Part shown: piece by piece, positions 27,696-49,500 of the stretch
How the letters are laid out: each line of letters begins with the position of its first letter
How positions within the stretch are numbered: the stretch's first letter is position 1
Origin: Antrihabitans stalactiti
GTDB taxonomy: Bacteria; Actinomycetota; Actinomycetes; Mycobacteriales; Mycobacteriaceae
DNA: 64,000 bases
Direction of reading: 5' to 3'
NCBI RefSeq assembly: GCF_012932915.1
Contig: NZ_VCQU01000008.1
Span: 186,001-250,000, forward strand
The notes under the pieces: generated by a model
The model's database searches: none
Seen by the model: the letters and a program-made list of their open reading frames with translations, nothing else
What the model was told of the DNA's origin: nothing
Translations under genes and position numbers: made by a program

Positions 27696-27965
27696 GTGAT
27701 CTCGCCCCAGTTCTTCCATGCGCTCGTCCTGCTCAACCTCTTGTTCGTCTGCGGCGCAGTGTGCCTCGTGAAGCCGAGCTGGATTTCGGTTGCGGCTGTG
27801 ACGGTCGCGGGCGTGCTTTGGGTGCTCTTCAACGGGCCGATCGAGGGCAGGGTGTTGTTCGTGCTCACCTCCGAGAACGGCGTGACCGAATCGGATCTAC
27901 TGGCGATCGCGGGCTGGGTGATCGCGGCGTTGGGGGTCTGGCGCATCCGCACCCGACGGACCTAG
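27696..27965 (+). CDS. Small membrane protein, unknown function
   Basis: An 89-residue protein with three hydrophobic segments (about residues 5-25, 28-48 and 65-83) and a basic C-terminus (RIRTRRT). I recognise no family. GTG 27696 is the likely start; GTG 27691 is out of frame. It lies 39 bases after deaD in the same direction and its stop overlaps that of the convergent fcl by three bases at a CCTAGG site. Confidence 0.6.
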
Positions 27966-28924
27966 GTGCGGAGCGAATCCATATGCGTGCGGTACCACTC
28001 GACGGTCGAAGCGATGCCTTCGCGCAGGCCGATCCGTGGGGTCCAACCTGATTCCCGCAACGTGGTGACGTCGAGGAGCTTTCGGGGAGTGCCGTCCGGC
28101 TTCGTTGTGTCCCACTCGACGCGGCCTTCGTAGCCGACCTCGGCCGCTACGATTTCGGCGATTTCCTTGATGGTCGAATCCTCGCCGGTACCGACGTTGA
28201 CCTGGGTGGGTCCGTCGTAGTGTTCGAGCAGGTGCAAGCACGCGGCCGCCATGTCGTCGACATGCAGAAATTCGCGTCGAGGCGAGCCGGAGCCCCAGTT
28301 GGTGACCGAGCTGGCGCCGTCGCGACGCGCTTCGTCGTAGCGACGGATCAAGGCGGGCAGCACATGCGAACCCTGCCGCGAAAAGTTGTCGCCCGGACCG
28401 TAGAGGTTGGTGGGCATCGCCGAGATCCACGGCAGCTCATACTGTTTGCGAACCGACTGCACCTGCAGGATCCCCGCTATCTTCGCGATCGCGTAGGCAT
28501 CGTTGGTCGGTTCGAGAGTGCCGGTGAGGAGGTATTCCTCCTTGATCGGCTGAGGCGCCAGCTTTGGGTAGATGCACGATGACCCGAGGAAGAGGAGTCG
28601 CTCGACGCCATGCTCGAGGGCCGCGTCCATCACGTTCAGCTGAATGCGCAGGTTCTCGGAAAGAAAGTCGACCGGGAAGGTGCTGTTGGCCATGATGCCG
28701 CCGACCTTCGCCGCAGCGAGAACGACAACGGCCGGCTTCGCCTGCGCGAAAAACGCGAACACGGCCGCGCGGTCGCGCAGGTCAAGCTCGGCGGACGATC
28801 GGCCGACGAGCTGATCGAAACCCGAGTAATCCAGATGACGCCAAATGGCAGAGCCGACGAGACCGCGGTGGCCGGCAACGTAGGTCGTGGCCGAGCGGTC
28901 GAGCGCGGACGGTACGAAACCCAT
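27962..28924 (-). CDS. fcl: GDP-L-fucose synthase
   Basis: A 320-residue short-chain dehydrogenase-type epimerase-reductase (E. coli Fcl is 321) converting GDP-4-keto-6-deoxymannose to GDP-L-fucose with NADPH. It shows the nucleotide motif [11 protein letters not shown], the catalytic LGSSCIYPK, the YxxxK pair in YAIAKIAGI, and the fucose-synthase segment LYGPGDNF. It lies four bases downstream of gmd on the same strand, completing the two-step route from GDP-mannose. The product feeds the exopolysaccharide locus on the right. Confidence 0.93.
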
Positions 28925-28928
28925 TCCC

Positions 28929-29951
28929 TCAGGCCCAATCGCTGAGTGCCGGGCGATCGATCCATTTACCGCCCTCGTGTGTGAGGGCCTCGATGTCGGC
29001 GTCGACCATGATCCGCGCGAGATCGGGTGTCTGGATCGTCGGCTTCCAGCCCAGCTTTTGCTCGGCCTTGCTCGCGTCGCCGATCAGTGCGTCGACCTCG
29101 GTCGGGCGCAGGTACCGCTCGTCGAACTTGACGTACCGCTCCCACTCCAGGTCCGCGCGCTCGAACGAAAATTGCAGGAAGTCCTTGACCGAATAATTGC
29201 CGCCGGTCGCGAGAACGAAATCGTCGGGCTCGTCGGCTTGCAGCATCCGCCACATTCCTTCGACGTATTCGGGCGCGTAACCCCAGTCGCGGATCGCGTC
29301 GAGGTTGCCCATGTACAGGACGTCCTGTGTGCCTGCCTTGATCCGAGCAACCGCGCGGGTGATCTTGCGCGTCACGAAAGTCTCACCGCGACGGGGAGAT
29401 TCGTGGTTGAACAGGATGCCGTTCACGGCGTGCAGACCGTAGGCCTCGCGATAGTTTCTCGTGATCCAATACGCGTAGACCTTCGCTGCCCCGTACGGCG
29501 ATCGCGGATAAAACGGCGTGTCTTCGTTCTGTGGCGGGGGAGTCGCGCCGAACATCTCCGAACTCGACGCCTGGTAGAACCGGCAGTTCAGCCCCGTCAT
29601 GCGGACCGCTTCCAACAAGCGAATCGCTCCGACGCCGGTGGTGTTTCCGGTGTGCTCAGGCTCGTCGAAGCTCACGCGAACATGGGATTGCGCAGCGAGG
29701 TTGTAGACCTCGTCGGGCACGATCTTGCTCAGCAACGTGACCAGTCGAGCGCCGTCGCTCAGGTCGCCGTAATGCAGAAACAGCTTGGCGGACGGTTCGT
29801 GCGGATCAACGTAGAGATGTTCGATTCGAGCCGTGTTGAACGTCGATGAACGGCGAATGAGCCCGTGCACCTCGTAGCCCTTGCTCAGCAGGAGCTCGGC
29901 CAGATACGAACCGTCCTGACCGGTAATCCCGGTGATCAACGCGCGCTTCAA
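28929..29951 (-). CDS. gmd: GDP-mannose 4,6-dehydratase
   Basis: A 340-residue NAD(P)-dependent dehydratase, first step of GDP-fucose synthesis. The N-terminus [27 protein letters not shown], and YxxxK in [12 protein letters not shown] are diagnostic. The start is taken as TTG 29951, which gives the standard N-terminus and has GGAG upstream; no ATG is nearby in frame. The acetyltransferase gene ends 17 bases before it and fcl follows after four bases, so all three are one leftward operon. Confidence 0.93.
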
Positions 29952-29968
29952 TATGAGCTCCAGACTAG

Positions 29969-30487
29969 TTAGGGGCGCCGGCGCTTCAGTTGCCACTGTG
30001 CCTGGTTGCGCTCCCACGCACTTTCGACAGTCCCCAGTTCGCGGGCAGGATTACCTGCTACGACCATCCCGTCGCCGACGGACTTCGTTACAACCGAACC
30101 AGCCCCGACGATCGCGCCGTCGCCGATCGTGACCCCGGGCATGATGATCGACCGGATACCGATGAACGCGTAGTCACCGATGCGGATCTTGCCTTTGGTC
30201 TCGTATTCCATATCCGATGGTGCGATTCCCATCTTCTCGGAATAGCGGTCGAGCGAGAAGTCGTGGGTGAGCAGCATGACGTGCTCGGACAACACGCAAC
30301 GGTGGCCGAGGGAGATGATCCCTTGCTCCTTGCTGTCGACGTAGATACTCGGGGCAACCCACAGCGGTTGACCGTCGATCTCCATCCCCCCGGAGCGGAG
30401 CGCGGCTGTGGCGAGGCGCATGTACCTGCGCTGGCTGAACCTGTCCACCAAGCGCAACAGGGGCAGCGTCTTCATCAGGATCCTCAT
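29969..30487 (-). CDS. Hexapeptide-repeat O-acetyltransferase, WcaF-like
   Basis: A 172-residue left-handed beta-helix transferase of the maltose/colanic-acid acetyltransferase group. Hexapeptide repeats run from about residue 50 to 150 ([33 protein letters not shown] has the family period), with a GNPAR end motif. ATG 30487 is preferred because GGGGA lies just upstream; ATG 30514 would overlap the divergent lipase start and lacks a ribosome site. It heads the gmd-fcl operon, so it probably acetylates a sugar of the exopolysaccharide. Confidence 0.82.
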
Positions 30488-30512
30488 CAGTCCCCACGCT
30501 AGCCTGTTCGCC

Positions 30513-31709
30513 ATGCCATCGTCGCGTGGAACTGCAATCGTGCTGGGCGCGTTGATTGTGCTGGTCACCGCGTGCTCCGGTACCGACTCGAAGCCCCGGC
30601 TCGAATTGTCGACACCGCTTCCTGCCATCGCTGCGAACGTCCTGGCTCAGCGCGGCACCATCGTCGAGTCGAAGCCCGCGCAGCTGCCCGACGACGTGAT
30701 GGCCAAGATCGGCCAAGCGTCGACCGTCGTCTATCGATCGGTATCGGGTTACGACGGCAAGGCGAGCGAAGTCGCCGGGACCGTCTTCGTACCGAAAGGC
30801 TCGCCGCCGGACGGTGGCTGGCCCGTCATCGCCTATGCACACGTGACGACGGGTACGACCGTCGACTGCGGACCGTCGCTCAGTGCGGACCTCAGGGGAA
30901 CAGCGTCGTCGATTGCTCCGATCGTCGAGTCCGGATTCGCCGTCGCCATGACCGACTACCAAGGCCTCGGTCACCCGGGTGGGCATCCGTACCTGGAACC
31001 GAAAACGGCGGCGTTCGACGTGATCGACTCGGTCCGTGCACTGCGCAACGTCTATCCGAATGTGTCGACCCGCTGGCTTGCCTTCGGCAGTTCGCAAGGG
31101 GGACAGGCCGCGTGGGCTGCAAACGAGTACGCCGCGGACTATGGCACCGGACTCGACTTCCTCGGCAGTATCTCGATCGCTCCGCCGGCAGACTTCACGG
31201 GTTACGCCGTCGCCGCGGAATCGGAAACTCTGACCCCGGGCCAGATCTTGTTCATGCCGCTGATCATCGCCGGCTTGCAAGTGGTTCATCCCGACCTCCA
31301 ACCTTCCGACTACCTACGCGGCGTTGCGCTCAACGACCAGCTGGCGCTGACGTCGTGCACGACGCCTGAGGCAGCGAACAAGAAGGCGCTTTTCGGCGAG
31401 CTGAATTCCGCGCAAGTGCGGCCGTCGTCGAAGGAGGCTGCTGATCGGCTCGTCGGCTGGCTGAAGGATTCCGCCCTCCCGCAGCGCCGAGCGTCGGGTC
31501 CGATGTTCGTGGTCAACGGCAGCCTCGATGACGTCGTCCTGCCGGCCTGGGTCTCGAGTGCGGTGAGCCGGGCCTGCGAGGCAGGCGACACGATCATCCA
31601 CCGCGAGATTGCAGACCGCGGTCACACCGACGTCGACGGCGGCGAAGAGATGTATGCGTGGATCCGCGACAGATTCACCGGCGCGGAGGCGCCGTCGAAT
31701 TGCCCGTGA
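30513..31709 (+). CDS. Secreted lipoprotein lipase (LIP-type alpha/beta hydrolase)
   Basis: A 398-residue exported enzyme. The signal peptide ends in lipobox VTAC with Cys21 as the lipidation site. The hydrolase domain resembles the secretory-lipase (LIP) family: DYQGLGHPGGHPYLEPK, the nucleophile Ser194 in GSSQGGQAAW, and a late aspartate/histidine pair in GSLDDVVLP and DRGHTDV. It would act on esters at the cell envelope. It is divergent from the acetyltransferase gene and ends five bases before a glycoside hydrolase gene. A second LIP-type lipase lies at 54806. Confidence 0.82.
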   Translation: MPSSRGTAIVLGALIVLVTACSGTDSKPRLELSTPLPAIAANVLAQRGTIVESKPAQLPDDVMAKIGQASTVVYRSVSGYDGKASEVAGTVFVPKGSPPDGGWPVIAYAHVTTGTTVDCGPSLSADLRGTASSIAPIVESGFAVAMTDYQGLGHPGGHPYLEPKTAAFDVIDSVRALRNVYPNVSTRWLAFGSSQGGQAAWAANEYAADYGTGLDFLGSISIAPPADFTGYAVAAESETLTPGQILFMPLIIAGLQVVHPDLQPSDYLRGVALNDQLALTSCTTPEAANKKALFGELNSAQVRPSSKEAADRLVGWLKDSALPQRRASGPMFVVNGSLDDVVLPAWVSSAVSRACEAGDTIIHREIADRGHTDVDGGEEMYAWIRDRFTGAEAPSNCP

Positions 31710-31713
31710 GCGG

Positions 31714-32793
31714 CTAGAGGGTGCCGAGGACTGCGGCGAGGGATTCCTTCGGCGTGAAGTCGGACCGCACGAGACCGTAGTTGAAATCCGCCACTGGGCT
31801 ACCCGTCTCGACGTCGCGGTAGTCGAACACGAAGATCCCTCCGCAGAACGGCAGCGCTTTCAGATAGTTGATGCCGTCGACCAGAAATGCAGCTTGGTCA
31901 GGCTCGCTCAACGCGCGGGGGCCTCCGGTTGTCGCGCCGAATTCGGTGAACCAGATCTTCTTCTTGGCGTCCCCGTTGCGGACCATCGTCATCCGTACCT
32001 GGGCAATGGCGTTCGCCGAACTTCCCTCACCGAAATATCTGCTGAGAAATCCGTGGTCGCTGTAGGGGTGCATGGCGATCGCGTCGAACGAGTGTCCCGC
32101 CCCTTCGCGATAGAGCTGCTCGAAGAAGCTGGCTGGGCTGAGGTCGTATCCGTTGTCGACGGTCGGTGCAGTCGCGCCGCTCACGACAACGATGTTCGGG
32201 TCGATCGCTTTGATCGCTGCGTACGACCGGATCAGCATCGCTGCGTAGAGGTTCACGTTGACCCCCGGCCCGAACGCTATCCCGATATTGGGTTCGTTCC
32301 AGATCTCCCAGGTTCGGATGCGGTTCTGGTATCGCTTCGTCGCGATCGACACGAATTCGGCGAACCTCGCTGGGTCTGCGGGTGCGGGGTGTTTGACCAG
32401 TTGGTTCTGCGGCGGTACGGCCCACGTCGGCGCCCACGTCGCCACGCCGAGAATTTCCGTCCCACGATCGTGGAAGCTGTTCACCAGGTTGTCAGTCGAC
32501 GTCCAGTCGAAAGTGCCGAATTCTTGGTTGACGATCGGCCACTCGATTGTCAGGCGGACCCAACGTATCTTCCGTTCGCTGATTTCGCGGCTTTGTCGGT
32601 CGAGCAGGTCGGGAGTCGCGCCTGCGGTGACTGCCGTGACACCTAAATTCGAAGCGCTGCAAGACCCTTCGTGCGGTGGTGCGGAGTGAACCGCGGACGG
32701 CGCAGCAAGCTTGTGGCTATCCACGCTGGTGCATGCCGCGAGCGAAAAGGCAGGTAAAAGGAGCGCCGTGAACACAACGCGCGTGATGGTCAT
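31714..32793 (-). CDS. Lipoprotein glycoside hydrolase, PslG/GH39-like (paralogue 1)
   Basis: A 359-residue exported hydrolase. ATG 32793 opens a signal peptide ending in lipobox LAAC. The (beta/alpha)8 domain carries the proposed acid/base Glu167 in WEIWNEPNI and the nucleophile Glu284 in WFTEFGATTGG, the retaining clan-A pattern. RKIRWVRLTIEWP and HPAPADPARFAEFV recall PslG-type exopolysaccharide hydrolases. It shares long identical blocks and exactly the same 117-residue Glu-Glu spacing with the protein at 47484-48581; the two bracket the sugar-assembly genes. It could trim or release the polymer at the cell surface. It is divergent from the wcaJ-like gene. Confidence 0.82.
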   Translation of the reverse strand: MTITRVVFTALLLPAFSLAACTSVDSHKLAAPSAVHSAPPHEGSCSASNLGVTAVTAGATPDLLDRQSREISERKIRWVRLTIEWPIVNQEFGTFDWTSTDNLVNSFHDRGTEILGVATWAPTWAVPPQNQLVKHPAPADPARFAEFVSIATKRYQNRIRTWEIWNEPNIGIAFGPGVNVNLYAAMLIRSYAAIKAIDPNIVVVSGATAPTVDNGYDLSPASFFEQLYREGAGHSFDAIAMHPYSDHGFLSRYFGEGSSANAIAQVRMTMVRNGDAKKKIWFTEFGATTGGPRALSEPDQAAFLVDGINYLKALPFCGGIFVFDYRDVETGSPVADFNYGLVRSDFTPKESLAAVLGTL

Positions 32794-32983
32794 TCGTCCA
32801 ACAAAAGGGTTCGAGATTGCAAGACCTTTCTTCCCCGAACCCGCGTCCTGTTTGCCTTCGAAATCGCGGACGGAAGGTACCGTAACGATTCTGGCGATGG
32901 CATCGACTAGAGGGTAGGTCGGGATCAACGGGGTCACCTGAGCTATTGGTAGTCGGTTGCAAGACTTACGGAGATTTCACTAG

Positions 32984-34498
32984 ATGGATTTCGCCAGCAA
33001 CGCGCACACGCAAGACGAGTCTGTCGGAGAATTGCTTGGCAGTGCGCGCAGAGCGTACCCGAGTCAACGCCCGTGGAAGCAGGCGTACAGGCGGAAGGTC
33101 CTCGCATCGGACGCCGCCGTCATCGTGTTCGCGGTTGCACTCGCGCAAATGCTGCGCTTCGGCATCGACGGAATTGCGGCGCAGCAAGACCCCGATTTCG
33201 CCGCCGTCACGACGTATTCCGCAGTTCTCTCGCTGTTGTGGATCCTGTGCCTCAGTCTCGTCGGGTCGCGCGACGTCGGACTGATCGGTAACGGGGCCGA
33301 CGAATATCGCCGCGTCGTCGCGGGGACGGGCTGGGTGTTCGGCACGATCGCGGTCGGCACCCTGCTGTTGCAGGCGGGCATGGCTCGCGGCTACCTCGGT
33401 ATCGCACTCCCCGTGGGATTGATCGGACTCATCGCCGAACGCCACATCTGGCGTCGACTGCTGGCGAAAGCCCGCGCGCGCGGCGAGTTCACCAGTGAGG
33501 TCATTGTCGTCGGCTGCCTGGAATCGGTTGCGTCGATCGGCAAACGACTCGACAGGGCAACAGACGCCGGCTACCGAGTCATCGGCGCGTGCGTGCCGGG
33601 CTTTTCTGGCGGTGTCGGTGAGACGGTGCAAGCCGGAACGCGATCGATACCGATCCTCGGCGACGAGAACTCGATCGATGCCGCGCTGACTCTGACCTCT
33701 GCGAGCACCGTGGCCGTTGCCGCCGTCGAGCAACTCGGTTACGAGCGCATGCGCAACTTGGCCTGGAAACTCGATGCGCTCGACGTCGACCTCGTCGTCG
33801 CTCCGGGCGTCGCAGATGTCGCAGGTCCGCGGCTGAAGATCCGACCCATCGACAATCTCGCGATGCTGCAGGTCGACAGGGCGAAATGTGAGGGCGCATC
33901 GATGATCGGGAAGTCGATCTTCGATTTCGTGTTCGCCGTGGTCGTCTTGCTCGTCGTCTTACCGGTCGTCGCCCTCGCGGCGATCGCGATCAAAGCCGAA
34001 GACGGTGGACCGGTGTTCTTCCGCCAGGAGCGCGTCGGTCTCGGTGGCAAGACGTTCCGAATCTGGAAATTGCGGACCATGGTCACCGACGCCGACAAGA
34101 TGATCGACGAGGCCAAGACCAAGGCAGGGCAAGACGCCGCTGTCTTCTACAAGTCCGCGAACGACGCTCGCATCACCCGGATCGGACACTTCCTCCGCAA
34201 GACCAGCATCGACGAGATCCCGCAGTTGTTCAACGTGCTCGGCCGGGACATGAGCCTCGTCGGTCCGCGCCCGCTCGTTCCCGGCGAGGGCTCCCATGTT
34301 TTCAACTTCATCGAGCGGCGCACCCTGGTCAAGCCCGGCATCACCGGGCTGTGGCAGGTTTCCGGCCGGTCGTCGGTCTCCGAGGAAGAGCGCATCCGTC
34401 TCGACCACTACTACGTCGACAATTGGTCGGTTGTGCAGGACCTTGTGATCATCTGGCGAACCATCGCCGCCGTCGTCAAATCCGACGGCGCTTGCTGA
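32984..34498 (+). CDS. Polyprenyl-phosphate sugar-1-phosphate transferase, WcaJ-like
   Basis: A 504-residue initiating transferase that loads the first sugar-1-phosphate (probably glucose or galactose) onto undecaprenyl phosphate. Several N-terminal membrane helices and a CoA-binding-like domain fill residues 1-290. After a further membrane segment near 305-330, the catalytic domain shows [42 protein letters not shown] and [14 protein letters not shown]. The start is ATG 32984 with ACGGAG about ten bases upstream. It leads the rightward sugar-transfer pair, two bases before the next gene. Confidence 0.92.
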
Positions 34499-34499
34499 G

Positions 34500-35753
34500 G
34501 TGCCGGCAGGAGTTTTCACCGATCTCGCTGGCTTGAAAGTCTGCGTCGTCGCTTGCCATTTCGATCCCGAGACCACTGGGAGCGCGCCGTACAACACGGC
34601 GCTGGTCAAGGCCCTTGGCGAGGGGGGTGCCGATGTCGAGGTCGTCACAGGCATCCCGCACTACCCCCAATGGGCCGTCGGCGACGAGAAGTATCGCCGC
34701 GGTCTCCGATGGAAAGAAACCTTCGGGCCTGCTCGAGTGACGCGCGTGAGGCATGCCGTCCCGCGCACGCCGAACCTGATCGGCCGCGCGCGAATGGAGT
34801 TGAGCTTCGCGTCGCTCGCGTTGCCGTATGTGCTGGCGTCGCGCAGCGATGTCGTTGTGGCCGTGACTCCCTTGCTCGGCGCATTCGTCGCGGGACGCTG
34901 TGCCGCGCGCGGTAGACCGCTCGGCGTGGTCGTGCACGATCTCAGCGGCAACGCAGCCCAGCAGTCCGGCACCACGGGTGCAGGCGCAGGCGCCGTCATC
35001 GGAAACATCGAGTACCGCCTCGCTCGGTCCGCCGATCTGGTCGGCGTGATCACCCCGCGCTTTCGCGACGTGCTGGTCAATGACGGCGGCGTCCGCCCCG
35101 AGCGAATCATCGACGTCCCGCTGTTCACTCACATCACCGGCGTGGACGAGACGACTGCAGCAGCGCGCGCACGCCTTGGCTGGCCGAGCACCTCGGATTT
35201 CGTCGTCGTCCACACGGGCAACATGGGCATGAAGCAAGGTCTGGACAATGTCGTGGACGCCGCGCGAATTGCCTACCAGCGCAATCTCGGAGTCTCGTTC
35301 GTCCTCGTCGGGGATGGCAATCAGCGGCGTGCCCTCGGCGATCTCGGCAAGGGCATCCCGAACCTGCGCTTCGTCGACCCCGTCGACGGCGATGCCTATC
35401 CCCACGTACTCGCCGCAGCGGATGCATTGCTGCTCAACGAGCGCCGCGGCGTGCTCGAAATGTCACTGCCGAGCAAGGTGACGTCCTACGTTGCGGCCCG
35501 CAGGCCAATGATCGCCGCGGTGGAATCCGGCGGTATCACGCACTCCGTCGTGGACGAGTTCGCCGCAGCACACATCGTCGATCCTGGCAGCGGCGAGGCG
35601 CTGGTCGCGGGTGCACTGGCGCTCCGCGACGACGAAGGACTGCGGACCAAGTTGGTCGACGCTGCGGCGCAACTGGGCGAAGCGAAGTTCGGCGAAGCCG
35701 CCGGACGCGAGGGCTTTCGCCGCTTCGCCAAGGCCCTAGCCAACACCCACTGA
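34500..35753 (+). CDS. Glycosyltransferase family 4, WcaI-like
   Basis: A 417-residue GT-B transferase. The N-terminus KVCVVACHFDPETTGSAPYN and GIPHYPQWAVGDEKYR resemble colanic-acid WcaI-type fucosyl or mannosyl transferases; the C-terminal domain has HTGNMGMKQGLDNVVDAARI, a GDGNQRRAL loop and the SLPSKVTSYVAARRPMIA donor-binding stretch. GTG 34500 follows the WcaJ-like stop by one base. It should add the second or a later sugar on the cytoplasmic face; the acceptor and donor are not known. Confidence 0.88.
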   Translation: MPAGVFTDLAGLKVCVVACHFDPETTGSAPYNTALVKALGEGGADVEVVTGIPHYPQWAVGDEKYRRGLRWKETFGPARVTRVRHAVPRTPNLIGRARMELSFASLALPYVLASRSDVVVAVTPLLGAFVAGRCAARGRPLGVVVHDLSGNAAQQSGTTGAGAGAVIGNIEYRLARSADLVGVITPRFRDVLVNDGGVRPERIIDVPLFTHITGVDETTAAARARLGWPSTSDFVVVHTGNMGMKQGLDNVVDAARIAYQRNLGVSFVLVGDGNQRRALGDLGKGIPNLRFVDPVDGDAYPHVLAAADALLLNERRGVLEMSLPSKVTSYVAARRPMIAAVESGGITHSVVDEFAAAHIVDPGSGEALVAGALALRDDEGLRTKLVDAAAQLGEAKFGEAAGREGFRRFAKALANTH

Positions 35754-35756
35754 CCC

Positions 35757-40386: not shown

Positions 40387-40959
40387 GTGAGTACTCAACA
40401 TGCCTCCGACCGATCGCTCGGTGCGCTGCGCGGGCGCTCGTACGATAAGGGCCGAGGCATCGTTGCACAGGCTCTCTGGGTCGCGATTTCGTCTGCTCTC
40501 TTCACTCGCGTGTGGTGCCCGAACAGTCTGCGCATCAAGATTCTGCGAGCCTTCGGCGCCGAGATCGGTACAGGCGTTCTGGTTCGGCACAACGTATCGA
40601 TTCAATGGCCGTGGAAGCTGACGATCGGTGACAACTCCTGGATCGGGGTCGGCGCGGAGGTGCTCAACCTCGAACGGATCACCATCGGATCCGACGTCTG
40701 CATATCCCAGCAGGCCTACCTCTGCGCTGGTAGCCACGATCATCGTTCCCCGGTTTTCGAATACGACAACGGCCCGATCACCCTCGAGGACGGCGTATGG
40801 ATCGGGATGCGCGCGGTAGTGCTGCGCGGCGTCCGGGTCGGTGCCAATTCAGTCGTCGGGGCGACAGCGTTGGTGACCGAGGACGTCGCACCGTCGTCGC
40901 TCGTTCTTGCTCCACGGGGTTCGGTCCAGCCGCTGGTGCGACGGATCGAGAAGTCCTGA
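40387..40959 (+). CDS. Hexapeptide-repeat O-acetyltransferase, WcaF/WcaB-like
   Basis: A 190-residue beta-helix acetyltransferase. It begins with a helix RIKILRAFGAEIGTGVLVR and then hexapeptide repeats with LTIGDNSWIGVGAEVLNLERITIGSDVCISQQAYLCAGSHDHRSP spacing, where the H-D-H is the family active site. The start is GTG 40387. The next glycosyltransferase ATG lies two bases after its stop. It is the second acetyltransferase of the locus, so the polymer may be acetylated at more than one position. Confidence 0.86.
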   Translation: MSTQHASDRSLGALRGRSYDKGRGIVAQALWVAISSALFTRVWCPNSLRIKILRAFGAEIGTGVLVRHNVSIQWPWKLTIGDNSWIGVGAEVLNLERITIGSDVCISQQAYLCAGSHDHRSPVFEYDNGPITLEDGVWIGMRAVVLRGVRVGANSVVGATALVTEDVAPSSLVLAPRGSVQPLVRRIEKS

Positions 40960-42074: not shown

Positions 42075-42081
42075 TCAGTAG

Positions 42082-42774
42082 ATGAACTCTCCTCGACGCC
42101 GCCCACGTGCCAAAGCCGCCGCGACGACCCTGCTTGTCGTCGCTCTGCTGGCGGTCACCGGCCTCGTTGCCTACATCCTGATCGCGAACAGCAACGAGAC
42201 GCCGCCGACTCCGAAGGAGACCTTGCGGGTGGCGGTCATCGGTGATTCCTACAGCGCTGGAGTCAAGAACTCCGTGGTGTGGCCGACCCTCATGGCCGAG
42301 TCCACAGGTGCCAGTGTGAGCAACGTCAGCGTGCCAGCTTCCGGATACTTGGCCGATGCGGGCGGACTGGGTCCGTTCGCAGCGCAATTGGACAAAGCGC
42401 TCGCATCGAAGCCGGATGTCATCGTCGTATTCGGCGGATTGTTCGACGTCGGCCAGCCGCTGGACCTCATCGGTCAAGCAGTGTCGGACCTGGTTGCGAA
42501 GCTGGCTCGGTCCGCGCCGAACGCCAAGATCATCGTGGTGGGTCCGCTCTGGCACGAGGTTCCCGCGCCCGACGTCGTCCGTCAGATCGATGAGACCGTC
42601 GGCACGTCGGTGCGAAATCTGAAGCTCACTTACCTCAGCCTCGTCGACGAACCCTGGCTTGCCAAACCAGGCTTGTTCCGTAACGACGACTCGCAGCCCA
42701 CCGATACCGGTCAACGAGTGTTGGCGAATTCGCTGACCGACGCACTACGAGCGGGCGGCGTTCCTTTTGGCTGA
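42082..42774 (+). CDS. Membrane-anchored SGNH-fold protein lacking catalytic residues
   Basis: A 230-residue protein with a basic N-terminus and one membrane helix (about 13-34), then an extracytoplasmic GDSL/SGNH fold. Block I is normal (VIGDSYSAG, Ser56). Block III reads GGLFDV, placing Phe121 where the conserved Asn should be, and block V reads DDSQPTDTG, with Gln205 in place of the catalytic His. Two of the four invariant residues are therefore lost. The next gene is a paralogue with all of them. It may be a polymer-binding pseudoenzyme or regulatory partner. Confidence 0.8.
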   Translation: MNSPRRRPRAKAAATTLLVVALLAVTGLVAYILIANSNETPPTPKETLRVAVIGDSYSAGVKNSVVWPTLMAESTGASVSNVSVPASGYLADAGGLGPFAAQLDKALASKPDVIVVFGGLFDVGQPLDLIGQAVSDLVAKLARSAPNAKIIVVGPLWHEVPAPDVVRQIDETVGTSVRNLKLTYLSLVDEPWLAKPGLFRNDDSQPTDTGQRVLANSLTDALRAGGVPFG

Positions 42775-43573
42775 TTCATCGAGAAAGCGCTGGGCTGGTG
42801 TCGGAGTTCTGGCTCTCGGAGTCGCCGTCGCCGCCGTGGTGAGCATCGTGGTCATCAGCCATCGGCAGTCCGACCCGGCGATCGCCGCCGAGGCGGCGGC
42901 AGCGGCGTCGGAGGTAACCGAACAGGACGGTTCTGCGAAGTCGGCGCTGTTCATCGGCGACAGCTACACCATGGGTCCGCCGTCGTTGCCAGACCTCGGT
43001 TACGCCTGCCTAGCGGCGACCAGCATGGGCTGGAACTGCAACCTTGCAGTCGTGCCCGGGACCGGCTTCATCAACGGCGGACCGAACCATCGGCTGCCGC
43101 AAAGCGCTGAAGGCCCCGAGTCCACGTCCTTCTACGAGCGCATTCCGAGCCTGCGCAGTCGATACGACGCTGACGTCGTCGTGATCGACGGCGGCCGCAA
43201 CGACGTGGTGTACGGCGCTGAAAACGTCGCCAATTCCTTTGTCTTCACAGTCGAGCAGGTCAAGGCTGCGTGGCCGAAGGCTCGCATCGTTGTCGTTGCT
43301 CCTTGGTACCTGCGTGATTCGGCGCTCAAGGCCACCAACAACTCCGGCGTCGCAGTCCCGATTGCGGACTGGTTGCAAAAGGCGCTTCGCGCCAAGCCCG
43401 ACCTCAAAGATGTGGTGTTCATCGACCCCAACGCTCTCGGCTGGATCGCCGGAATCGATGTCGCGCCCCTGATCGGATCGGACAACGTCCATCCGAACGC
43501 GGCGGGTAGCCGCTTCCTCGGCGACAAGCTTGCCGCCACGCTCGCAGCTGATGGCCTCGGCGACACCAGATGA
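42767..43573 (+). CDS. Membrane-anchored SGNH hydrolase, canonical
   Basis: A 268-residue protein with an N-terminal membrane helix (about 9-31) and an alanine-rich stalk, then an external SGNH hydrolase with complete blocks: Ser66 in IGDSYTMG, Gly in VPGTGFI, Asn145 in DGGRNDV, and Asp239/His242 in DNVHPNAAG. It could remove or transfer acetyl or acyl groups on the exported polymer. The best start is TTG 42767, overlapping the end of the preceding SGNH gene by eight bases. The next gene begins four bases after its stop. Confidence 0.82.
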   Translation: MADSSRKRWAGVGVLALGVAVAAVVSIVVISHRQSDPAIAAEAAAAASEVTEQDGSAKSALFIGDSYTMGPPSLPDLGYACLAATSMGWNCNLAVVPGTGFINGGPNHRLPQSAEGPESTSFYERIPSLRSRYDADVVVIDGGRNDVVYGAENVANSFVFTVEQVKAAWPKARIVVVAPWYLRDSALKATNNSGVAVPIADWLQKALRAKPDLKDVVFIDPNALGWIAGIDVAPLIGSDNVHPNAAGSRFLGDKLAATLAADGLGDTR

Positions 43574-43577
43574 TTCG

Positions 43578-44909
43578 ATGAACGAAACGCTCGGCGAATA
43601 CTTCAGGATCCTGCGTGATCGATGGCGGTGGGTTGTCCTCGTCATGCTGATCATCATCGGTGGAACCGCTGCACTGCTGCTGGTGCAACCCAAGCAGTAC
43701 GAATCGGTGTCGTCGGTGTTCGTGTCCACTCCGCGCGACGACGCCGATACCTACTACCAGGGTCACCAGTTCGCCCGTGAGCGGTCGCCTTCCTACGTGG
43801 CGCTGCTGCAGAGCGAGCAGCTCGCCAGGCGGGTCATCGGTGATCTCGGCCTCGACATGGAACCTGCTGAGCTGATCGCGTCGACGAAAGCAGCCGCCAT
43901 CCCGAGCACCGTGTTGATACAGCTGACGACGAAAGCGAAGTCCCCGGGGTTGGCGCGACAGATCAATCAGACCTATATCGACGAGCTCGAGGCAGAGGTC
44001 GCGTCGATCGAAACGATTCCGGGAGCCCTCACGCCCCGCGCGGAATTGATCGTCGTCGAGCCGCCCACACTCCCCGCGAAGCCGGGCGGGTTTCCGCCGA
44101 TCTTGCTGCTTGCCGCAGCGACCGGCGCGGGACTCGCGGCGGGTGCAGGGTTGGCCGTCGTTCTGGCCTTGCTCGACACGAAGATTCGCCGGCCGGAGGA
44201 TGCGGAAGAGGCCGCGGGCGCGCCCGTTCTCGCTGTACTTGCTCCCGACGCAGACCCGGTTGAGCCCTATCGGCAGCTGCGCGGCAATCTCACGACGACG
44301 GTCACGGAGGGTTCGGATGCAGATTCCCACGTCGTGCTCATCTGTTCGACCGAACCAGGCGCGGGCAAGACGTGGCTCGCGCTGGAACTCGCGCGCGTGT
44401 TTCGCGACGAGGGCTCGCGCCCAGCCGTGATCGATCTCGATGTGCGCAATTCCCTCGTTGCCAGTCTCACCCGGTCGCTGAACCCCGTCACCGTTGCCGA
44501 TGTGGTCATAGACCGAACGTCGCCCAGCGACACCGAAAGCAACAGGCGCGATGGGATGACGATCGTTCCCGTCGGTGACGTCGGCGCTCACGGTGGACGC
44601 ATGATCGACTCGCCCCGAGTCGGTCTGTTGTTGGACCGAGTCAAACTCACCAGCAACTGGCTTCTCATCGACACTGCTGCCGCTGCGAAATACAGTGACG
44701 CACTTCGACTCGCGCGGCATGCGGACTTCGTCCTGGTCGTCGCCCAAGCCGGCCGGACCCGCTTCGATCGGCTCTCGCGATTGGCCGGCGAGTTCCGCGA
44801 GGCCGGTCACCCCATTGGGGGAATTGTGTTCAACGATCTACCTCCGGCGAAGCGCGCAACTGCGCGAGCTGCCAGGCATGCACGTGTAAAGGAAACGACG
44901 GCCAAATAA
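43578..44909 (+). CDS. Wzc-like chain-length determinant with intact P-loop ATPase
   Basis: A 443-residue polysaccharide co-polymerase. Two membrane helices (about 19-37 and 173-197) flank a shorter than usual Wzz domain. A cytoplasmic BY-kinase-like domain follows: Walker A STEPGAGKTWLALELA with Lys264, Walker A' VIDLDVRNS, Walker B WLLIDTAAA. No tyrosine cluster is present at the C-terminus (ends ARVKETTAK), so autophosphorylation of the E. coli Wzc type is doubtful. It overlaps the next Wzc-like gene by one base (TAATG). It probably controls polymer length together with that protein. Confidence 0.85.
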   Translation: MNETLGEYFRILRDRWRWVVLVMLIIIGGTAALLLVQPKQYESVSSVFVSTPRDDADTYYQGHQFARERSPSYVALLQSEQLARRVIGDLGLDMEPAELIASTKAAAIPSTVLIQLTTKAKSPGLARQINQTYIDELEAEVASIETIPGALTPRAELIVVEPPTLPAKPGGFPPILLLAAATGAGLAAGAGLAVVLALLDTKIRRPEDAEEAAGAPVLAVLAPDADPVEPYRQLRGNLTTTVTEGSDADSHVVLICSTEPGAGKTWLALELARVFRDEGSRPAVIDLDVRNSLVASLTRSLNPVTVADVVIDRTSPSDTESNRRDGMTIVPVGDVGAHGGRMIDSPRVGLLLDRVKLTSNWLLIDTAAAAKYSDALRLARHADFVLVVAQAGRTRFDRLSRLAGEFREAGHPIGGIVFNDLPPAKRATARAARHARVKETTAK

Positions 44910-46198
44910 TGAACTCGAACAAGGCTTTTGCCGCGTTGCGCGATCGATGGTGGATACCGGTGGTCGCGATGGTGATCGGCATCGGTGTCGGCATCGGGTT
45001 GACCTTCGTGCTGACGCCGCAGTACACGTCGTCGGCAAAGTTGTTCGTCAGTACCACTGGCGGCACGACGTCGACCGAGTCGTTCCAGGGCGACCAGTTC
45101 TCGCAACAGCGTGCCGGCTCCTACGCCGACATGCTCAGCAGCGAGATCCTCGGCAAACGTGTGGTCGACGCGTTGCGGTTGCCGCTGAGCGGATCGGAGG
45201 TGGCGAGCAAGGTCACTGCCACCGCGGTGCCGAAAACGGTACTGATCAACGTCAGCGTCAAAGACGATTCTGCTCAGCGCTCCGCTGCGATCGCGAACAA
45301 GCTTGCCGAAGAATTCATCTCCTACATCACACCGCTGGAGACTCCTGCCGGGCAGGCCCAAGCTCGCGTGGTCGTCACACTTGTCAGTCCCGCAGCGGTC
45401 CCCGACAGCCCCACCTTTCCGAAATTGATTCCGTTCGCGCTGTACGGGGCGATCATCGGTCTCGTAATAGGGCTCGCATTCGTCGCGTTTCGGCATCTGA
45501 CGGATCGGTCGGTCGGCAAGGTCGGCAAGCTCGCGGCGGCATCCGGACTGCCCGTTCTGGGTCCGGTGACAGTCGTCGACCGAAGTCCGGACGAGCGTCG
45601 CGCTCAGATGAATTCGTGGGACACCCCCGAGGCCGAGGCGTATCGGAAGGTGCGGGTTGCGTTGCAGTCGATGGACCCCGAGCCTCGGATTATCGTCGTC
45701 ACGAGTTCGAAAACCGGTGAGTCGACGGTCCACGCAGCGCTCGACCTCGCTATCGCGTTCGCCGAGACCGACCGCTCGACAGTGTTGATCGAGACAGATT
45801 CGGCGAACCCGGTTCTCGCCAGCGAACTTTCGTTGGCTCCCAGCCCTGGTTTGATCGATCTGATCAGTGTGAACCTGACTCTCGATCACGTCGTGCAGAA
45901 GACGATCCAACACTGCCTCAGCGTCGTTCCGGTCGGCACTGGCCGCGACGTCGCCCCGCTACTGCCGTCGCATGTGGTCAGCCAAGCGTTGTTTTCGCTT
46001 CTGGCCGAGTACAACTACATCGTGATCGATACCCCACCGATGGACCGCAGCAGCGCTGCTTCGGTGTTGGCTGCTGTGTCGGACGGAACCTTGTTGGTCG
46101 TGGATCCGGACGTCGCGCGTCGCAAAGATGTTGTGCGCGCGACAAAAGAACTGCGAACCTCAGGTGCGCGCCCGCTCGGTGCGGTGCTGGTCGGTTAG
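44909..46198 (+). CDS. Wzc-like chain-length determinant with degenerate P-loop
   Basis: A 429-residue paralogue of the preceding protein with the same layout: membrane helices near 16-36 and 174-195, a short Wzz domain containing the shared GDQFSQQRAGSYADML block, and a cytoplasmic nucleotide-binding fold. Walker B is intact (IVIDTPPMD), but the P-loop at residues 264-273 reads VTSSKTGESTV, missing the Gly-Lys of GKST, and Walker A' reads LIETDSANP. It is unlikely to bind ATP normally. It may serve as a structural partner of the intact paralogue. Its 3' end overlaps the convergent acyltransferase gene by 39 bases. Confidence 0.82.
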   Translation: MNSNKAFAALRDRWWIPVVAMVIGIGVGIGLTFVLTPQYTSSAKLFVSTTGGTTSTESFQGDQFSQQRAGSYADMLSSEILGKRVVDALRLPLSGSEVASKVTATAVPKTVLINVSVKDDSAQRSAAIANKLAEEFISYITPLETPAGQAQARVVVTLVSPAAVPDSPTFPKLIPFALYGAIIGLVIGLAFVAFRHLTDRSVGKVGKLAAASGLPVLGPVTVVDRSPDERRAQMNSWDTPEAEAYRKVRVALQSMDPEPRIIVVTSSKTGESTVHAALDLAIAFAETDRSTVLIETDSANPVLASELSLAPSPGLIDLISVNLTLDHVVQKTIQHCLSVVPVGTGRDVAPLLPSHVVSQALFSLLAEYNYIVIDTPPMDRSSAASVLAAVSDGTLLVVDPDVARRKDVVRATKELRTSGARPLGAVLVG

Positions 46199-47446
46199 CA
46201 GCGCGATCGGGTCGGTGGTCACCATCCGCAGTGCCGCCTCGATCTTCTCTCGGGGAAAGACGTTGTCGTGAAACGATGCCGAGAACGTCCGATCGTTGTC
46301 GATCACGGTGGCCATGATCGTGAGCGCTTCCGGTCCGGCGGTATCCAGCAACCCGGTCAGCATCCGCCCTTCATCGACGACCCATTTCGACTTCGCGAGC
46401 GTCGGTGGCCGGCCGAGGTCGGTGTACATCATGCGCATGCGGGGGTGCGCGGGAACCGTATCGACCGGAACGGTCACGACCTTGCGCCGCACGCGGGTCA
46501 CAGCGGAGGCGAAACCGAGCCACGCCAACGGCAGTCCTGACTCGTAGGCAGCGGACAAGGCGGCAGCGGCGTCGTCGAGCGGCGTCTCGCTGTGTATCGG
46601 GACACTCATCCCGAGCACGAAGTTTCCGTTGACGACACTTTTTTTCGGCAGGTAGCGACGACAGTCCACGGCAACGACGAGGTCGTCGGTCGCGTGCAGA
46701 CCGACTGCGCGAAATGCTTTGCGGAAGAGCATCATCGCCAGGAGCGCGCCGCTAACGTTGGGCGCGTTGTGCTTTCGCCACTGCCTGAGTTCGGTTTCGA
46801 CGGAACCGGGGGAGACGGCGAAACTGACGGCGTGCGATGGCTGCCAGGGGAGCAGCCCGGTGTCGGTGGGCGGCTCGGAAGAACTCGCGGATCGCATCTC
46901 GCGGAACGCACTCCGCACGCGTACCAGTTGGCGTACATGCTTCGGCCGCACCACGAACCAGCGAAACACCGCTTTGGCCAACGCATGCCGGGTTTCCGGG
47001 GTGTCCGCCCACGCACCGAGCGTGCCCGTCGACGTGTACTCGTCGACGGCCGTAATCAAATCGACCAAGAGCTTTCCGTCGCCGAGACCGTGGTCGGTGT
47101 CGAAGAAGAGATAGTTGCCGCACAAGATCAACTGGAACGACGGCTTTGGGCCGGTCTCTCGACGGACCGACTCGGCGGCGGCGGACAGTCCCGCGACGTT
47201 GGACGGGCCGGGGATCTCGCGGACCGCGTCCCTTCGCAGTACTGGATCGAAGGCCCAGGTGGCGCTCGACTGGCTCGATCGCAGGCCGATTCGCGTCTGC
47301 GTTCCCGCTCGAGCGATTTCGACCAACGCTTTCCGCACCGACTCGACCGATCGCTGCTCCACCGGACCGGTTATGCCGATGTAGCGGCCGCCGGACATGA
47401 ACAGGTCGCCGCCGGAGGCCTTGAAGCGTTTCGTCGACTCGGCCAT
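46160..47446 (-). CDS. HxxxDG-motif acyltransferase (condensation/WES-like fold)
   Basis: A 428-residue protein with the two-lobed CoA-dependent acyltransferase pattern. The key motif DTDHGLGDG places His119 and Asp123 as in HHxxxDG enzymes such as PapA, wax-ester synthases and condensation domains. The C-terminal lobe includes VDCRRYLPKKSVVNGNFVLGMSVP, equivalent to the solvent-channel NVVP/DxGxG-type region. It has no signal peptide. Given its place in the exopolysaccharide locus it could acylate the polymer precursor, but a wax-ester or glycolipid role is also possible. It is convergent with the Wzc-like pair. Confidence 0.68.
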   Translation of the reverse strand: MAESTKRFKASGGDLFMSGGRYIGITGPVEQRSVESVRKALVEIARAGTQTRIGLRSSQSSATWAFDPVLRRDAVREIPGPSNVAGLSAAAESVRRETGPKPSFQLILCGNYLFFDTDHGLGDGKLLVDLITAVDEYTSTGTLGAWADTPETRHALAKAVFRWFVVRPKHVRQLVRVRSAFREMRSASSSEPPTDTGLLPWQPSHAVSFAVSPGSVETELRQWRKHNAPNVSGALLAMMLFRKAFRAVGLHATDDLVVAVDCRRYLPKKSVVNGNFVLGMSVPIHSETPLDDAAAALSAAYESGLPLAWLGFASAVTRVRRKVVTVPVDTVPAHPRMRMMYTDLGRPPTLAKSKWVVDEGRMLTGLLDTAGPEALTIMATVIDNDRTFSASFHDNVFPREKIEAALRMVTTDPIALLTDQHRTERART

Positions 47447-47483
47447 CGACTCAATCTACCCATCGAACGGCTGTGTTCGAGGG

Positions 47484-48581
47484 TCAGGCTCCGAGCATGG
47501 CCTGAACTGCGGCAAGTGACGGCTTGGGTGAGTAATCCGTCCGCACCAGGCCGAAGTTGAATTCGACGTTCGGACTTCCGGTGTTGAGGTCGCGAAAGTC
47601 GAAAAGGAAGATCGGTCCGGCGTTGGGCAGCGATCGCAGGTAATTGATGCCGTCGACCAAGATCTCCGATTGTCTGGCTTCGGTCACTCCGTATGGCTGG
47701 GTGGCCGACGTCGGGGCGCCGAACTCGGTTGTCCACAGCCGTCTTCCGCCGTCGCCGAAGGCCGTCAGCAACCAATTGATGACGGTGATCGCGTTCTTCG
47801 ACGAGTTCCAGTCCGCACCCTGGCTCAGCAGGCCGGGGGCGCTGTATGGATGGATGCCGAGGCCGTCCAAGCTGCCCTTGGCGCCCCACCAGTACATGTA
47901 CTGAACGAACATGTAGGGGCTGATGTTCGTGCCGTCGTCCATGGACGGGGAAAGGCCGCCCGAAATGACGGTGGCACTCGAATCAACCGCCTTGATTGCT
48001 GCATAAGACAGTTTCAGCATTGTCGTGTATTTCGCGGGATCGGGCTTCGGCGCGAAACTGGCTTGGATATTCGGCTCGTTCCAGATCTCCCAGTTCTTGA
48101 TCGAGCCCTTGTACCGCTGGGCGGCAAGCTTGACGAAGTTGGCGAACGTTGCGGGATCAGCCGGAGCCGGGTGGATGAAGTTCCTTCCCTCTGCCGTCGC
48201 TGCCCAGGCAGGCGTGTAGGTCAGGAGGCCGAGGATGTTCAAGCCGGCAGCAGCGGCGGCGTTGACCTTTTGATCGGTTGTAGCCCAGTTGAATACGCCC
48301 TTGACGTTCTCGACGTCGGGCCATTCGATCGATAGCCGGACCGCCTTGAATCGAGCATTGGTGACGGCCTGGAAGTCCCTGGTTTGCGACGCCGCAGCAG
48401 CGCCGGTCGTCGTCACCGCGGTCACGCCGACGAGTCCTGGCGCCATGGGTCCTGTTGCGGCCGAAGCGGTCGGAGGGGCGATGAAACCCGCAGCAACGAT
48501 GGCGGTCGCCGCCGATACGATGGTTACGGTGCGCCTAGCCGAGCGAATACGGTGTCGTGTTCCATGCAGCAGGAACTTCAC
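47484..48581 (-). CDS. Secreted glycoside hydrolase, PslG/GH39-like (paralogue 2)
   Basis: A 365-residue exported enzyme with a Sec signal peptide (basic start, hydrophobic 19-35, cleavage probably after PPTASA) and no lipobox, unlike its paralogue at 31714. Catalytic residues are Glu169 in WEIWNEPNI and Glu286 in LWTTEFGAPT. HPAPADPATFANFV and LVDGINYLRSLP match the paralogue closely. It should be released or loosely held outside and could cut the exopolysaccharide during assembly or dispersal. It is divergent from a lipoprotein gene and 37 bases downstream of the acyltransferase start in the same direction. Confidence 0.84.
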   Translation of the reverse strand: MKFLLHGTRHRIRSARRTVTIVSAATAIVAAGFIAPPTASAATGPMAPGLVGVTAVTTTGAAAASQTRDFQAVTNARFKAVRLSIEWPDVENVKGVFNWATTDQKVNAAAAAGLNILGLLTYTPAWAATAEGRNFIHPAPADPATFANFVKLAAQRYKGSIKNWEIWNEPNIQASFAPKPDPAKYTTMLKLSYAAIKAVDSSATVISGGLSPSMDDGTNISPYMFVQYMYWWGAKGSLDGLGIHPYSAPGLLSQGADWNSSKNAITVINWLLTAFGDGGRRLWTTEFGAPTSATQPYGVTEARQSEILVDGINYLRSLPNAGPIFLFDFRDLNTGSPNVEFNFGLVRTDYSPKPSLAAVQAMLGA

Positions 48582-48717
48582 GGGAAAACCTCACTTTGGG
48601 GCAAATGCAGAATGGGAATACGTGCGGAATCGATAAGGGCGCCATCGCTCCTCGAAAGGATGAATGGTCGTGCGGCGAAATTCAAGCCCCTGCAAACCGG
48701 ACAGTGGGGGTAATCGA

Positions 48718-49500
48718 ATGCGTTTCGCTGATCTCGGAACTTTCAGACCGATCGGAATCGTCTTCGCGGTGACGGTTTCGGTGACATCCTGCGCGTCGGG
48801 CGCGCCCGAATTCAGTCCGCTTCCCAAGGCTGCGCCCACGGCCTCCGAGGTCTACGGAGATTTCTCGCAGCTGCCCGACGGACCGGCTCCAGCAACCTTT
48901 TCCAACGGCGCGCCAGCCCATGTGGCCGAGTCGGCCGATCCTGGGTCGACGCCCCGAATTATCAATGGTCAGTTGACGTTTCGTCCGACCGGGTCCGCCA
49001 GTCCTGCCGCCGGATACTTCCAGACCGATGCGTTGGAGCGGGCGGTGACGCGAATCGGTTTCCGGTGGATCATCTCGCCCGCGAAGGGGAAATCTCCCGG
49101 CGTTGCGGCGGCTGCGGTGACCGGTGAGCTTGCGCACTTCATCGACGGATCGTCGCCGGAAATGCCGCTGCACTTTATCGTCGACAGCGACAGTTGGAAC
49201 TACTCGGTGGCACCAGAAAGAGATAAAGGCGGCGTCGAATTGTTATCAATTGCGTCCGGGACATTTAATCCGCCACTCGCCGAAGATGGCAAGACGATTC
49301 ATTCGGTTGAAATATGCGTGGCGAAAGATACCGCGACTCTGTCACTGCCGGACGGAACCGAGCAGACCGTTAGGGATCCCCGGATCAAGGCATGGGCTTC
49401 TCGGTTCGCATTCTTCGAGCCGTTCTCCGCTTCGGGCGATCCGTCGTCGATTGCGGGCTTCACCGAGGTGTGGGCCGATTCCAAACCTTGTCGAAATTGA
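48718..49500 (+). CDS. Secreted lipoprotein, possible lectin-like fold
   Basis: A 260-residue lipoprotein. ATG 48718 is chosen because GGGGG lies seven bases upstream and it gives a proper signal peptide with lipobox VTSC. The mature part is rich in beta-prone, alternating polar/hydrophobic stretches (FSQLPDGPAPATF, GYFQTDAL, HFIVDSDSWNYSVA, DTATLSLPDGTEQTV), which suggests a jelly-roll or concanavalin-like domain; I do not recognise a named family. Its place at the edge of the exopolysaccharide locus suggests polymer binding at the cell surface. Confidence 0.68.
   Translation: MRFADLGTFRPIGIVFAVTVSVTSCASGAPEFSPLPKAAPTASEVYGDFSQLPDGPAPATFSNGAPAHVAESADPGSTPRIINGQLTFRPTGSASPAAGYFQTDALERAVTRIGFRWIISPAKGKSPGVAAAAVTGELAHFIDGSSPEMPLHFIVDSDSWNYSVAPERDKGGVELLSIASGTFNPPLAEDGKTIHSVEICVAKDTATLSLPDGTEQTVRDPRIKAWASRFAFFEPFSASGDPSSIAGFTEVWADSKPCRN

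Follow-up and report, generated by a model that had tools for sequence, protein, structure and literature searches.

A probable fucose exopolysaccharide island with paired, mostly kinase-poor copolymerases and an SGNH module in Antrihabitans stalactiti

Based on its gene content, its boundaries, its synteny in relatives, its linkage to gmd, the loss of kinase motifs and the linkage of SGNH to copolymerase genes, all of which are observed directly, we propose that an island of about 22 kb in Antrihabitans stalactiti likely directs the synthesis of an O-acetylated exopolysaccharide (EPS) that contains fucose, through a Wzx/Wzy-dependent pathway with a pair of polysaccharide copolymerases (PCP1 and PCP2) that would operate mostly without tyrosine phosphorylation and an SGNH module that would act outside the membrane. 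The island lies in a window of 64 kb, the whole stretch of DNA analysed, on contig NZ_VCQU01000008.1 of the 6.76 Mb genome, and its coordinates are given as window positions. It is ordinary in plan and unusual in its copolymerases and SGNH module.

The block is a single presence/absence island, because the genes that flank it, deaD (25857-27656) and yjgF (49512-49991), adjoin in three of three congeners. In these genomes the stretch between the two neighbours is empty of the island, with spacings of 0.7, 0.65 and 2.2 kb as measured by match ends and the flanking order largely kept, and no island protein matched the deaD-yjgF stretches read from the three congeners at E 1e-10. The span of 27962..49500 drawn in an original prediction, made from the DNA letters alone, is thus meaningful, as the island ends match this empty-site comparison. 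Profile searches (Pfam, NCBIfam) also bear out nearly item by item the genes listed there, the exception being an HxxxDG acyltransferase, and they add an overlooked gene for a secretory-lipase-like lipoprotein (PF03583; 30408-31709, plus strand). The genes of the island, including glycosyltransferases (GT) and glycoside hydrolases (GH), are as follows, with profile scores in bits against the Pfam or NCBIfam family cut-offs:

27962..28924, minus: fcl, GDP-L-fucose synthase; NF047922 442.8 bits, under the cut-off of 500, yet the best family
28929..29957, minus: gmd, GDP-mannose 4,6-dehydratase, start codon uncertain; TIGR01472 516.7 bits, cut-off 415
29969..30628, minus: hexapeptide-repeat acetyltransferase 1; PF00132 43.3 bits, cut-off 27
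30408..31709, plus: secretory-lipase-like lipoprotein, true start probably further in; PF03583 54.6 bits, cut-off 23; lipobox-like VTAC
31714..32937, minus: GHa, GH-A-clan-like glycoside hydrolase, putative lipoprotein; PF00150 at cut-off, PF11790 just over; WEIWNEP, TEFG, LAAC
32984..34498, plus: WcaJ/WbaP-type initiating sugar phosphotransferase (EPS_sugtrans); TIGR03025 384.8 bits, cut-off 295.55; WcaJ and WbaP models sub-cut-off
34500..35753, plus: GT4a, WcaI-like glycosyltransferase; NF007640 WcaI family E 4.9e-54, 184 bits, cut-off 276
35803..37161, minus: Wzx-like flippase (Polysacc_synt); PF01943 48.6 bits, cut-off 28.2; 11 hydrophobic stretches
37274..38074, minus: GT2a, WcaE-like glycosyltransferase; best NCBIfam model wcaE, E 1e-18, sub-cut-off
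38071..38958, minus: GT2b, TuaG/WcaA-like glycosyltransferase; NCBIfam TuaG E 2.3e-13, WcaA 1.5e-7, both sub-cut-off
38955..40232, minus: Wzy-like polymerase (Wzy_C); PF04932 43.6 bits, cut-off 31.7
40387..40959, plus: hexapeptide acetyltransferase 2, WcaF-like, directly before GT4b; NF007797 WcaF family 174.4 bits, cut-off 192
40962..42074, plus: GT4b glycosyltransferase; PF00534 83.6 bits; HpsP/EpsE-like, sub-cut-off
42082..42774, plus: SGNH1, membrane-anchored SGNH (GDSL) protein, catalytic His absent; PF13472 52.3 bits, cut-off 32.9
42767..43573, plus: SGNH2, membrane-anchored SGNH (GDSL) protein, GDS and DxxH present; PF13472 52.7 bits, cut-off 32.9
43530..44909, plus: PCP1 (Wzz/Wzc-like), Walker A GAGKT, no Tyr tail; PF02706 34.9 bits, cut-off 25.5
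44909..46198, plus: PCP2 (Wzz/Wzc-like), Walker A lysine lost (KTGEST), no Tyr tail; PF02706 34.2 bits, cut-off 25.5
46160..47446, minus: putative HxxxDG acyltransferase; HGLGDG motif conserved, no family found
47484..48581, minus: GHb, secreted GH-A-clan-like glycoside hydrolase; PF00150/PF00331 just over cut-off; WEIWNEP, TEFG
48664..49500, plus: lipoprotein of the island, function unassigned; VTSC lipobox-like; homologues in three other type-A loci, a partial one in G069

The hallmarks of the Wzx/Wzy pathway all score above cut-off, namely the TIGR03025 transferase, the PF01943 flippase, the PF04932 polymerase and PF02706 in both PCPs. At the equivalog level of the Wca enzymes only gmd does so, the fcl, WcaI, WcaE, WcaF and WcaJ models being matched below. 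The set of sugar enzymes is similar to that for colanic acid, and the predicted repeat is acetylated and contains fucose among five sugars, the number five following from one initiating transferase and four GTs. As the WcaJ and WbaP models are both sub-cut-off, the starting sugar of the repeat is not assigned by profile. In colanic acid, the E. coli enzymes WcaI and WcaE, to which GT4a and GT2a come nearest, add fucose.

Homologues of Wzx (E 1e-20 or better) are present in 36 of 401 genomes of a family sample, on which the gmd and SGNH2 counts are taken to rest as well, and these represent 10 of 31 genera; a separate Wzx scan of named genomes gave 47 loci. Surroundings were read for 33 of the 36 genomes (the sites in G086, G218 and G268 were left out), and the locus counts here and below are not independent, as many loci are related; L071 and G360 are counted once. 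Seven of the 33, the window included, share with few gaps a layout that we term type A. In all seven, wzx-GT2a-GT2b-wzy, GT4a, sgnh2-PCP1-PCP2, the acyltransferase gene and GHb are present, as are wcaJ and the lipase gene in six, the WcaF-like gene with GT4b in six, sgnh1 in five, gmd and fcl inside the fetched stretch in five, and the lipoprotein gene in four; acetyltransferase 1 occurs in two of the six other type-A genomes. A second type, in Rhodococcoides and Williamsia, keeps wzx-GT2a-GT2b-wzy and mostly also the WcaF-like gene, GT4b, gmd and fcl, with Wzc-like proteins in some loci and Walker A kept in the three checked (L064, L083, L089). The third type, which has wzx-GT2b-wzy and the SGNH-PCP block together with the WcaF-like gene and GT4b, is found in R. 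tukisamuensis, R. maanshanensis, R. aetherivorans, R. phenolicus, R. zopfii, Nocardia and several Mycolicibacterium. Rhodococcus, Rhodococcoides, Williamsia, Nocardia and Mycolicibacterium all make mycolic acids. The locus core thus recurs in Rhodococcus, Mycolicibacterium and Nocardia with a conserved layout, and not as the homologues scattered without synteny that would have spoken against the original prediction. In many third-type loci (L066, L073, L077, L078, L085, L086, L087, L090, L100 and others) an additional Wzy_C-like protein, which is sub-cut-off where scanned, is encoded close to the PCP pair, and after it comes a protein of about 255 residues that matches no Pfam family; a DUF218 protein is also present in nine loci.

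Linkage to the fucose precursor pathway is also apparent. Among the 401 genomes, gmd (E 1e-120 or better) occurs in 103, comprising 34 of the 36 with Wzx versus 69 of the 365 without (Fisher p 3e-20). The former count is a lower bound, since G130, one of the two gmd-negative Wzx genomes, does show gmd at its locus. In two type-A genomes gmd lies away from the locus, on another contig in G332 and 1.4 Mb off in G033. In G204, gmd is present twice near the type-A locus (contig C18, 295551-304324), the copies being separated by about 8 kb and each accompanied by fcl. Taken with the empty sites and the synteny, this linkage supports well the earlier view of a single EPS system of the Wzx/Wzy kind that includes the pathway to its fucose precursor. 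Its "unusually rich decoration" is partly a common kit, as relatives also have genes for WcaF-like acetyltransferases, SGNH proteins, GHs and lipases, while the acyltransferase stands at the level of a motif.

The copolymerases depart from the canonical Wzc form. PCP1 and PCP2 each have two hydrophobic stretches about 140 residues apart, so that their extracytoplasmic parts are short; that of E. coli Wzc is much longer. Of the "two Wzc-like proteins" first predicted, two Wzz-type (PF02706) proteins stand, but neither is a canonical bacterial tyrosine kinase (BY-kinase): no Tyr is found in the last 40 residues of either, and PCP2 lacks the Walker A lysine that PCP1 retains. Across a first-tier set of 27 tandem loci (24 named loci, the window, G033 and G070), the lysine is retained in five PCP1 and no PCP2, i.e. 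lost in 22 of 27 PCP1, and the ATPase module is absent altogether from 10 PCP1 and six PCP2. Together with 11 further loci, in which two of 22 PCPs have GK[ST], the motif is present in seven of 76 PCPs, leaving 69 without a usable Walker A and 31 of 38 loci without GK[ST] in either partner. As a control, the 11 Wzc homologues met elsewhere in the named loci, away from such blocks, all retain it. The idea that the loss is peculiar to a single genome finds no support in these counts. In Nocardia loci L084 and L090, PCP1 has no ATPase module and PCP2 has a degenerate one in a long open frame.

In a tree of the membrane parts (57 rows from the named loci and the window: 21 PCP1, 25 PCP2, 11 others), PCP1, PCP2 and the others each fall on one side of a branch, with support of 100/100, 94/81 and 86/82. 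The PCP1 of L071, L072, L074 and L076, cut by the locus end, and one of the two L087 PCP1 pieces are omitted, and the L087 piece that was kept sits on a very long branch. Judging from this tree, PCP1 and PCP2 are two old lineages kept side by side; a recent duplication is unsupported by it. Presumably the two form one complex.

Alternatively, the locus may be an ordinary kinase system, in which PCP1 is an active BY-kinase modulated by PCP2, on the pattern of CapA/CapB, with a phosphatase acting in trans. The GAGKT of PCP1 is compatible with this, as are three low-molecular-weight tyrosine phosphatase genes, none in the locus and all on another contig. However, the Tyr tails are missing from both proteins, TIGR01007 has no match above cut-off in the whole genome, and most PCP1 orthologues have lost Walker A, so that we consider this explanation improbable. 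A copolymerase pair working mostly without phosphorylation would also render the missing Wzb less puzzling, because the kinase motifs are mostly lost. The same genome has a second polysaccharide locus (contig C22, 322000-352000; L183, L184) with asparagine-synthase-like, polysaccharide-lyase (PF14099), Wzz-type, Wzy_C, further Wzc-like, flippase and GT genes; of its two Wzc-like proteins, one has a Wzz match and the other a kinase-model match only, and neither has a GK[ST] Walker A.

Directly upstream of the copolymerases lies the SGNH module, SGNH1 and SGNH2 each having one N-terminal hydrophobic stretch. Of 19 SGNH2 sequences that were aligned (the window and 18 of 20 named loci, L057 and L063 being omitted as near copies), 18 have the catalytic Ser and 17 the catalytic His. 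By contrast, SGNH1 is predicted to be mostly a pseudo-enzyme, because Ser is present in only six and His in two of 15 aligned sequences, the His of the window protein being gone; this alignment holds the window and 14 of 20 named hits, without L085 (stop in frame), L063 (near copy) and the type-B hits L060, L061, L064 and L068. SGNH2 precedes PCP1 in each of the 24 first-tier tandem loci with the upstream side in view (20 named, the window, G033, G070 and G360). Within the family sample it is found (E 1e-25) in 27 of 401 genomes, with 16 strong matches, all in Wzx genomes, and 11 weaker ones. At all 11 weaker loci SGNH2 stands directly before two PCP genes; as these loci were found through SGNH2, its presence there is by construction, that of the neighbouring PCPs not. 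GT4b, a WcaI-like GT4a and gmd are each in view at 10 of the 11, and fcl at seven; in 23 of the 27 genomes, the coordinates place gmd no more than 25 kb from SGNH2. Ten of the 11 genomes have no Wzx at E 1e-20 and that of G268 lies elsewhere (25% identity), flippase and polymerase having been sought only with profiles from this locus family. The gmd and GT genes at these Wzx-poor loci indicate that the association of SGNH2 and the two PCPs with fucose genes persists through changes of Wzx.

SGNH2 weakly matches several solved structures (best E 7e-6), entries for an acetyl esterase and an endoglucanase E among them. As the simplest role, we infer that SGNH2 removes or moves O-acetyl groups added by the WcaF-like enzyme. 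A general occurrence of SGNH2 throughout Actinobacteria was also considered. In a class sample, 20 of 394 genomes have SGNH2 at 1e-15, 16 of them outside the family; in the seven of these 16 that were opened, no other window protein matched within 17 kb at E 1e-4, a search that diverged copolymerases could escape. In G008 (L191), a family member with a weak SGNH2, diverged EPS genes and gmd/fcl adjoin it.

The earlier statement that no Wza- or Wzb-like gene is present holds for the locus and, for Wza, extends to the genome: PF02563 (Wza/OPX) has no match in all of it, in a search whose control was positive in four of 14 genomes. As that prediction proposed, export across the mycomembrane may use other parts. 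As a tentative extension with a low chance of being correct in full, the SGNH pair and the copolymerase pair might form one extracytoplasmic complex that takes over the Wza-type task at the mycomembrane. Such a complex would define a mycolate class of Wzx/Wzy system of its own, with stable, heteromeric, phosphorylation-independent copolymerases and an active/pseudo SGNH pair, editing the fucose polymer and passing it towards the mycomembrane.

For the protein at 46160-47446, the predicted HxxxDG acyltransferase is retained as a motif, but family-level confirmation is lacking. It shares an HGLGDG-like motif with nine homologues (H in 10 of 10, D nearly invariant). The window protein matches no Pfam or NCBIfam family, and the ten proteins gave no convincing Pfam match and, in a PDB sequence search, only weak unrelated hits (best E 0.045). 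With hhalign, a PapA-like protein of the same genome aligns with the motifs in register, though marginally (P 0.017, probability 2.7%), versus nothing for a wax-synthase-like protein of that genome (P 0.25) and P 0.33 for a lipase control. We suggest that the acyltransferase-like and lipase-like proteins act together, and hypothesize that the former is tied to fatty-acid-containing EPS. At a different locus, in G008 (L021:17724-19901), a lipase-like gene, 42% identical, adjoins an acyltransferase homologue. The lipoprotein at 48664-49500 found no Pfam or NCBIfam family and no PDB relative in sequence searches.

These genes also bear on an unlikely alternative, namely that the product is a cell-wall-linked glycopolymer or a lipid-anchored lipooligosaccharide, with the Wzy_C protein as a ligase and the acyltransferase lipidating a short glycan. 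The Wzy_C profile is indeed named for O-antigen ligases, the acyltransferase-like, lipase and SGNH genes would fit, and some relatives have the further Wzy_C-like protein, which in the one scanned scored 21.9 bits against a cut-off of 31.7. Against it, chain-length proteins of the Wzz type are found with the locus both in the window and in the tandem loci that were read, and an excerpt of a review (PMC12786566) gives 1.04 x 10^6 for a fucose-containing EPS from R. erythropolis HX-2. That the island is a silent or decaying acquisition, as its absence from the three congeners and the lost catalytic residues of SGNH1 and PCP2 could imply, is very unlikely, given that its gene models are intact open frames of coding-type composition, that its G+C content (0.634) is near that of the rest of the window (0.642) and that the same residue losses in relatives argue against local decay.

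We therefore favor a Wzx/Wzy-dependent EPS pathway, for which we propose the following mechanism. The WcaJ-type transferase would load a hexose-1-phosphate onto undecaprenyl phosphate, and GT4a, GT2a, GT2b and GT4b would add four sugars, at least one of them L-fucose supplied through Gmd and Fcl, giving a pentasaccharide that the WcaF-like enzyme may acetylate. Wzx would then flip the repeat for polymerization by Wzy, while PCP1 and PCP2 would set the chain length, mostly without a tyrosine-phosphorylation cycle and hence without need of Wzb. In conjunction, the anchored SGNH1 and SGNH2 would edit acetyl groups beside the copolymerase, SGNH2 as the active member and SGNH1 in a binding or scaffolding role. 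Trimming or holding of the product may fall to the GH, lipase and lipoproteins, and the HxxxDG protein may add fatty acyl groups.

Several observations weigh against parts of this proposal. The order of the sugars is tentative because the GT models score under their cut-offs. PCP1 of the window keeps Walker A, so phosphorylation may still play a part here, and the SGNH-PCP block lies within the fetched stretch in only 15 of the 33 Wzx loci. The acyltransferase model, predicted from a three-sequence alignment, is poor (pLDDT 39, pTM 0.39) and leaves the fold unconfirmed, and homologues outside such loci occur in 10 of 61 relatives, most at 32% identity or less. Finally, the genome of strain IEGM 1391 (L059, G337) holds most of the type-A layout, with wcaJ, sgnh1 and the lipoprotein gene not seen there, and the strain ranks towards the bottom of a table on EPS, at 2.3 +/- 0.6 in an excerpt that lacks the column heading (PMC12298843). 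This low value warns that presence of the island need not mean high yield.

Among the closest known systems is the E. coli colanic acid (wca) locus, whose gene list served as the basis of comparison. The island shares with it gmd, fcl, WcaJ-, WcaI-, WcaE- and WcaF-like enzymes, Wzx and Wzy. However, it has no Wza or Wzb, carries a split pair of short copolymerases instead of a single Wzc and adds the SGNH pair, GH and lipase genes, and its matches besides gmd are below equivalog cut-offs. The pseudokinase principle is already known for copolymerases of Gram-negatives: in EcpK/EpsV and HfsB/HfsA, the kinase module that serves a PCP-2 has neither Walker motifs nor a Tyr tail, and single-polypeptide variants are mentioned, according to excerpts of a paper that covers Gram-negative pathways and in which, to that extent, the string "actinobacter" is absent (PMC12004946). 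By the same measure, PCP2 lacks the Walker A lysine, PCP1 of the window has it, and the Tyr tail is absent in both. Unlike EcpK and HfsB, the PCPs of the island type are in tandem, both with a Wzz membrane part, with the kinase module intact, decayed or missing. For the tandem form, the frequency of kinase loss and the mycolate setting, we found no description in one open-access library, subscription papers lying mostly outside the search.

Polymers with fucose are known from Rhodococcus as chemistry, including mucoidan, the RHA1 EPS and fatty-acid-containing EPS (excerpts of PMC12786566 and PMC12298843), the last from two R. rhodochrous strains with palmitic and stearic acid together with fucose (PMC12786566, in part). 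For mucoidan, from R. erythropolis PR4, a pentasaccharide that includes one fucose is described (PMC12298843, in part); its five sugars equal WcaJ plus four GTs and so agree with the island in number, which is no identification, and the Wzx of the island is here not tied to those strains. On the genetic side, the terms "gene cluster" and "flippase" are absent from the excerpted text of a 2026 review of Rhodococcus EPS (PMC12786566). The EPS set of plasmid pDK1 of Rhodococcus sp. DK17 resembles the island in its annotated sugar transferase, WcaI family GT, gmd, GDP-L-fucose synthase and lipopolysaccharide biosynthesis protein. It differs in a pyruvyl transferase and a UDP-glucose/GDP-mannose dehydrogenase, its GT4a counterpart is just 40.6% identical, and no SGNH or Wzc is among the 21 features listed. 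pDK1 (L207) is a linear plasmid of 398 kb, and its fucose EPS set also comes with manA and an NDP-sugar synthase.

In conclusion, the island offers a testable genetic basis for the fucose polymers of Rhodococcus. In addition, its SGNH block and kinase-poor copolymerase pair represent concrete candidates for the exit of a heteropolysaccharide through the mycomembrane without Wza.

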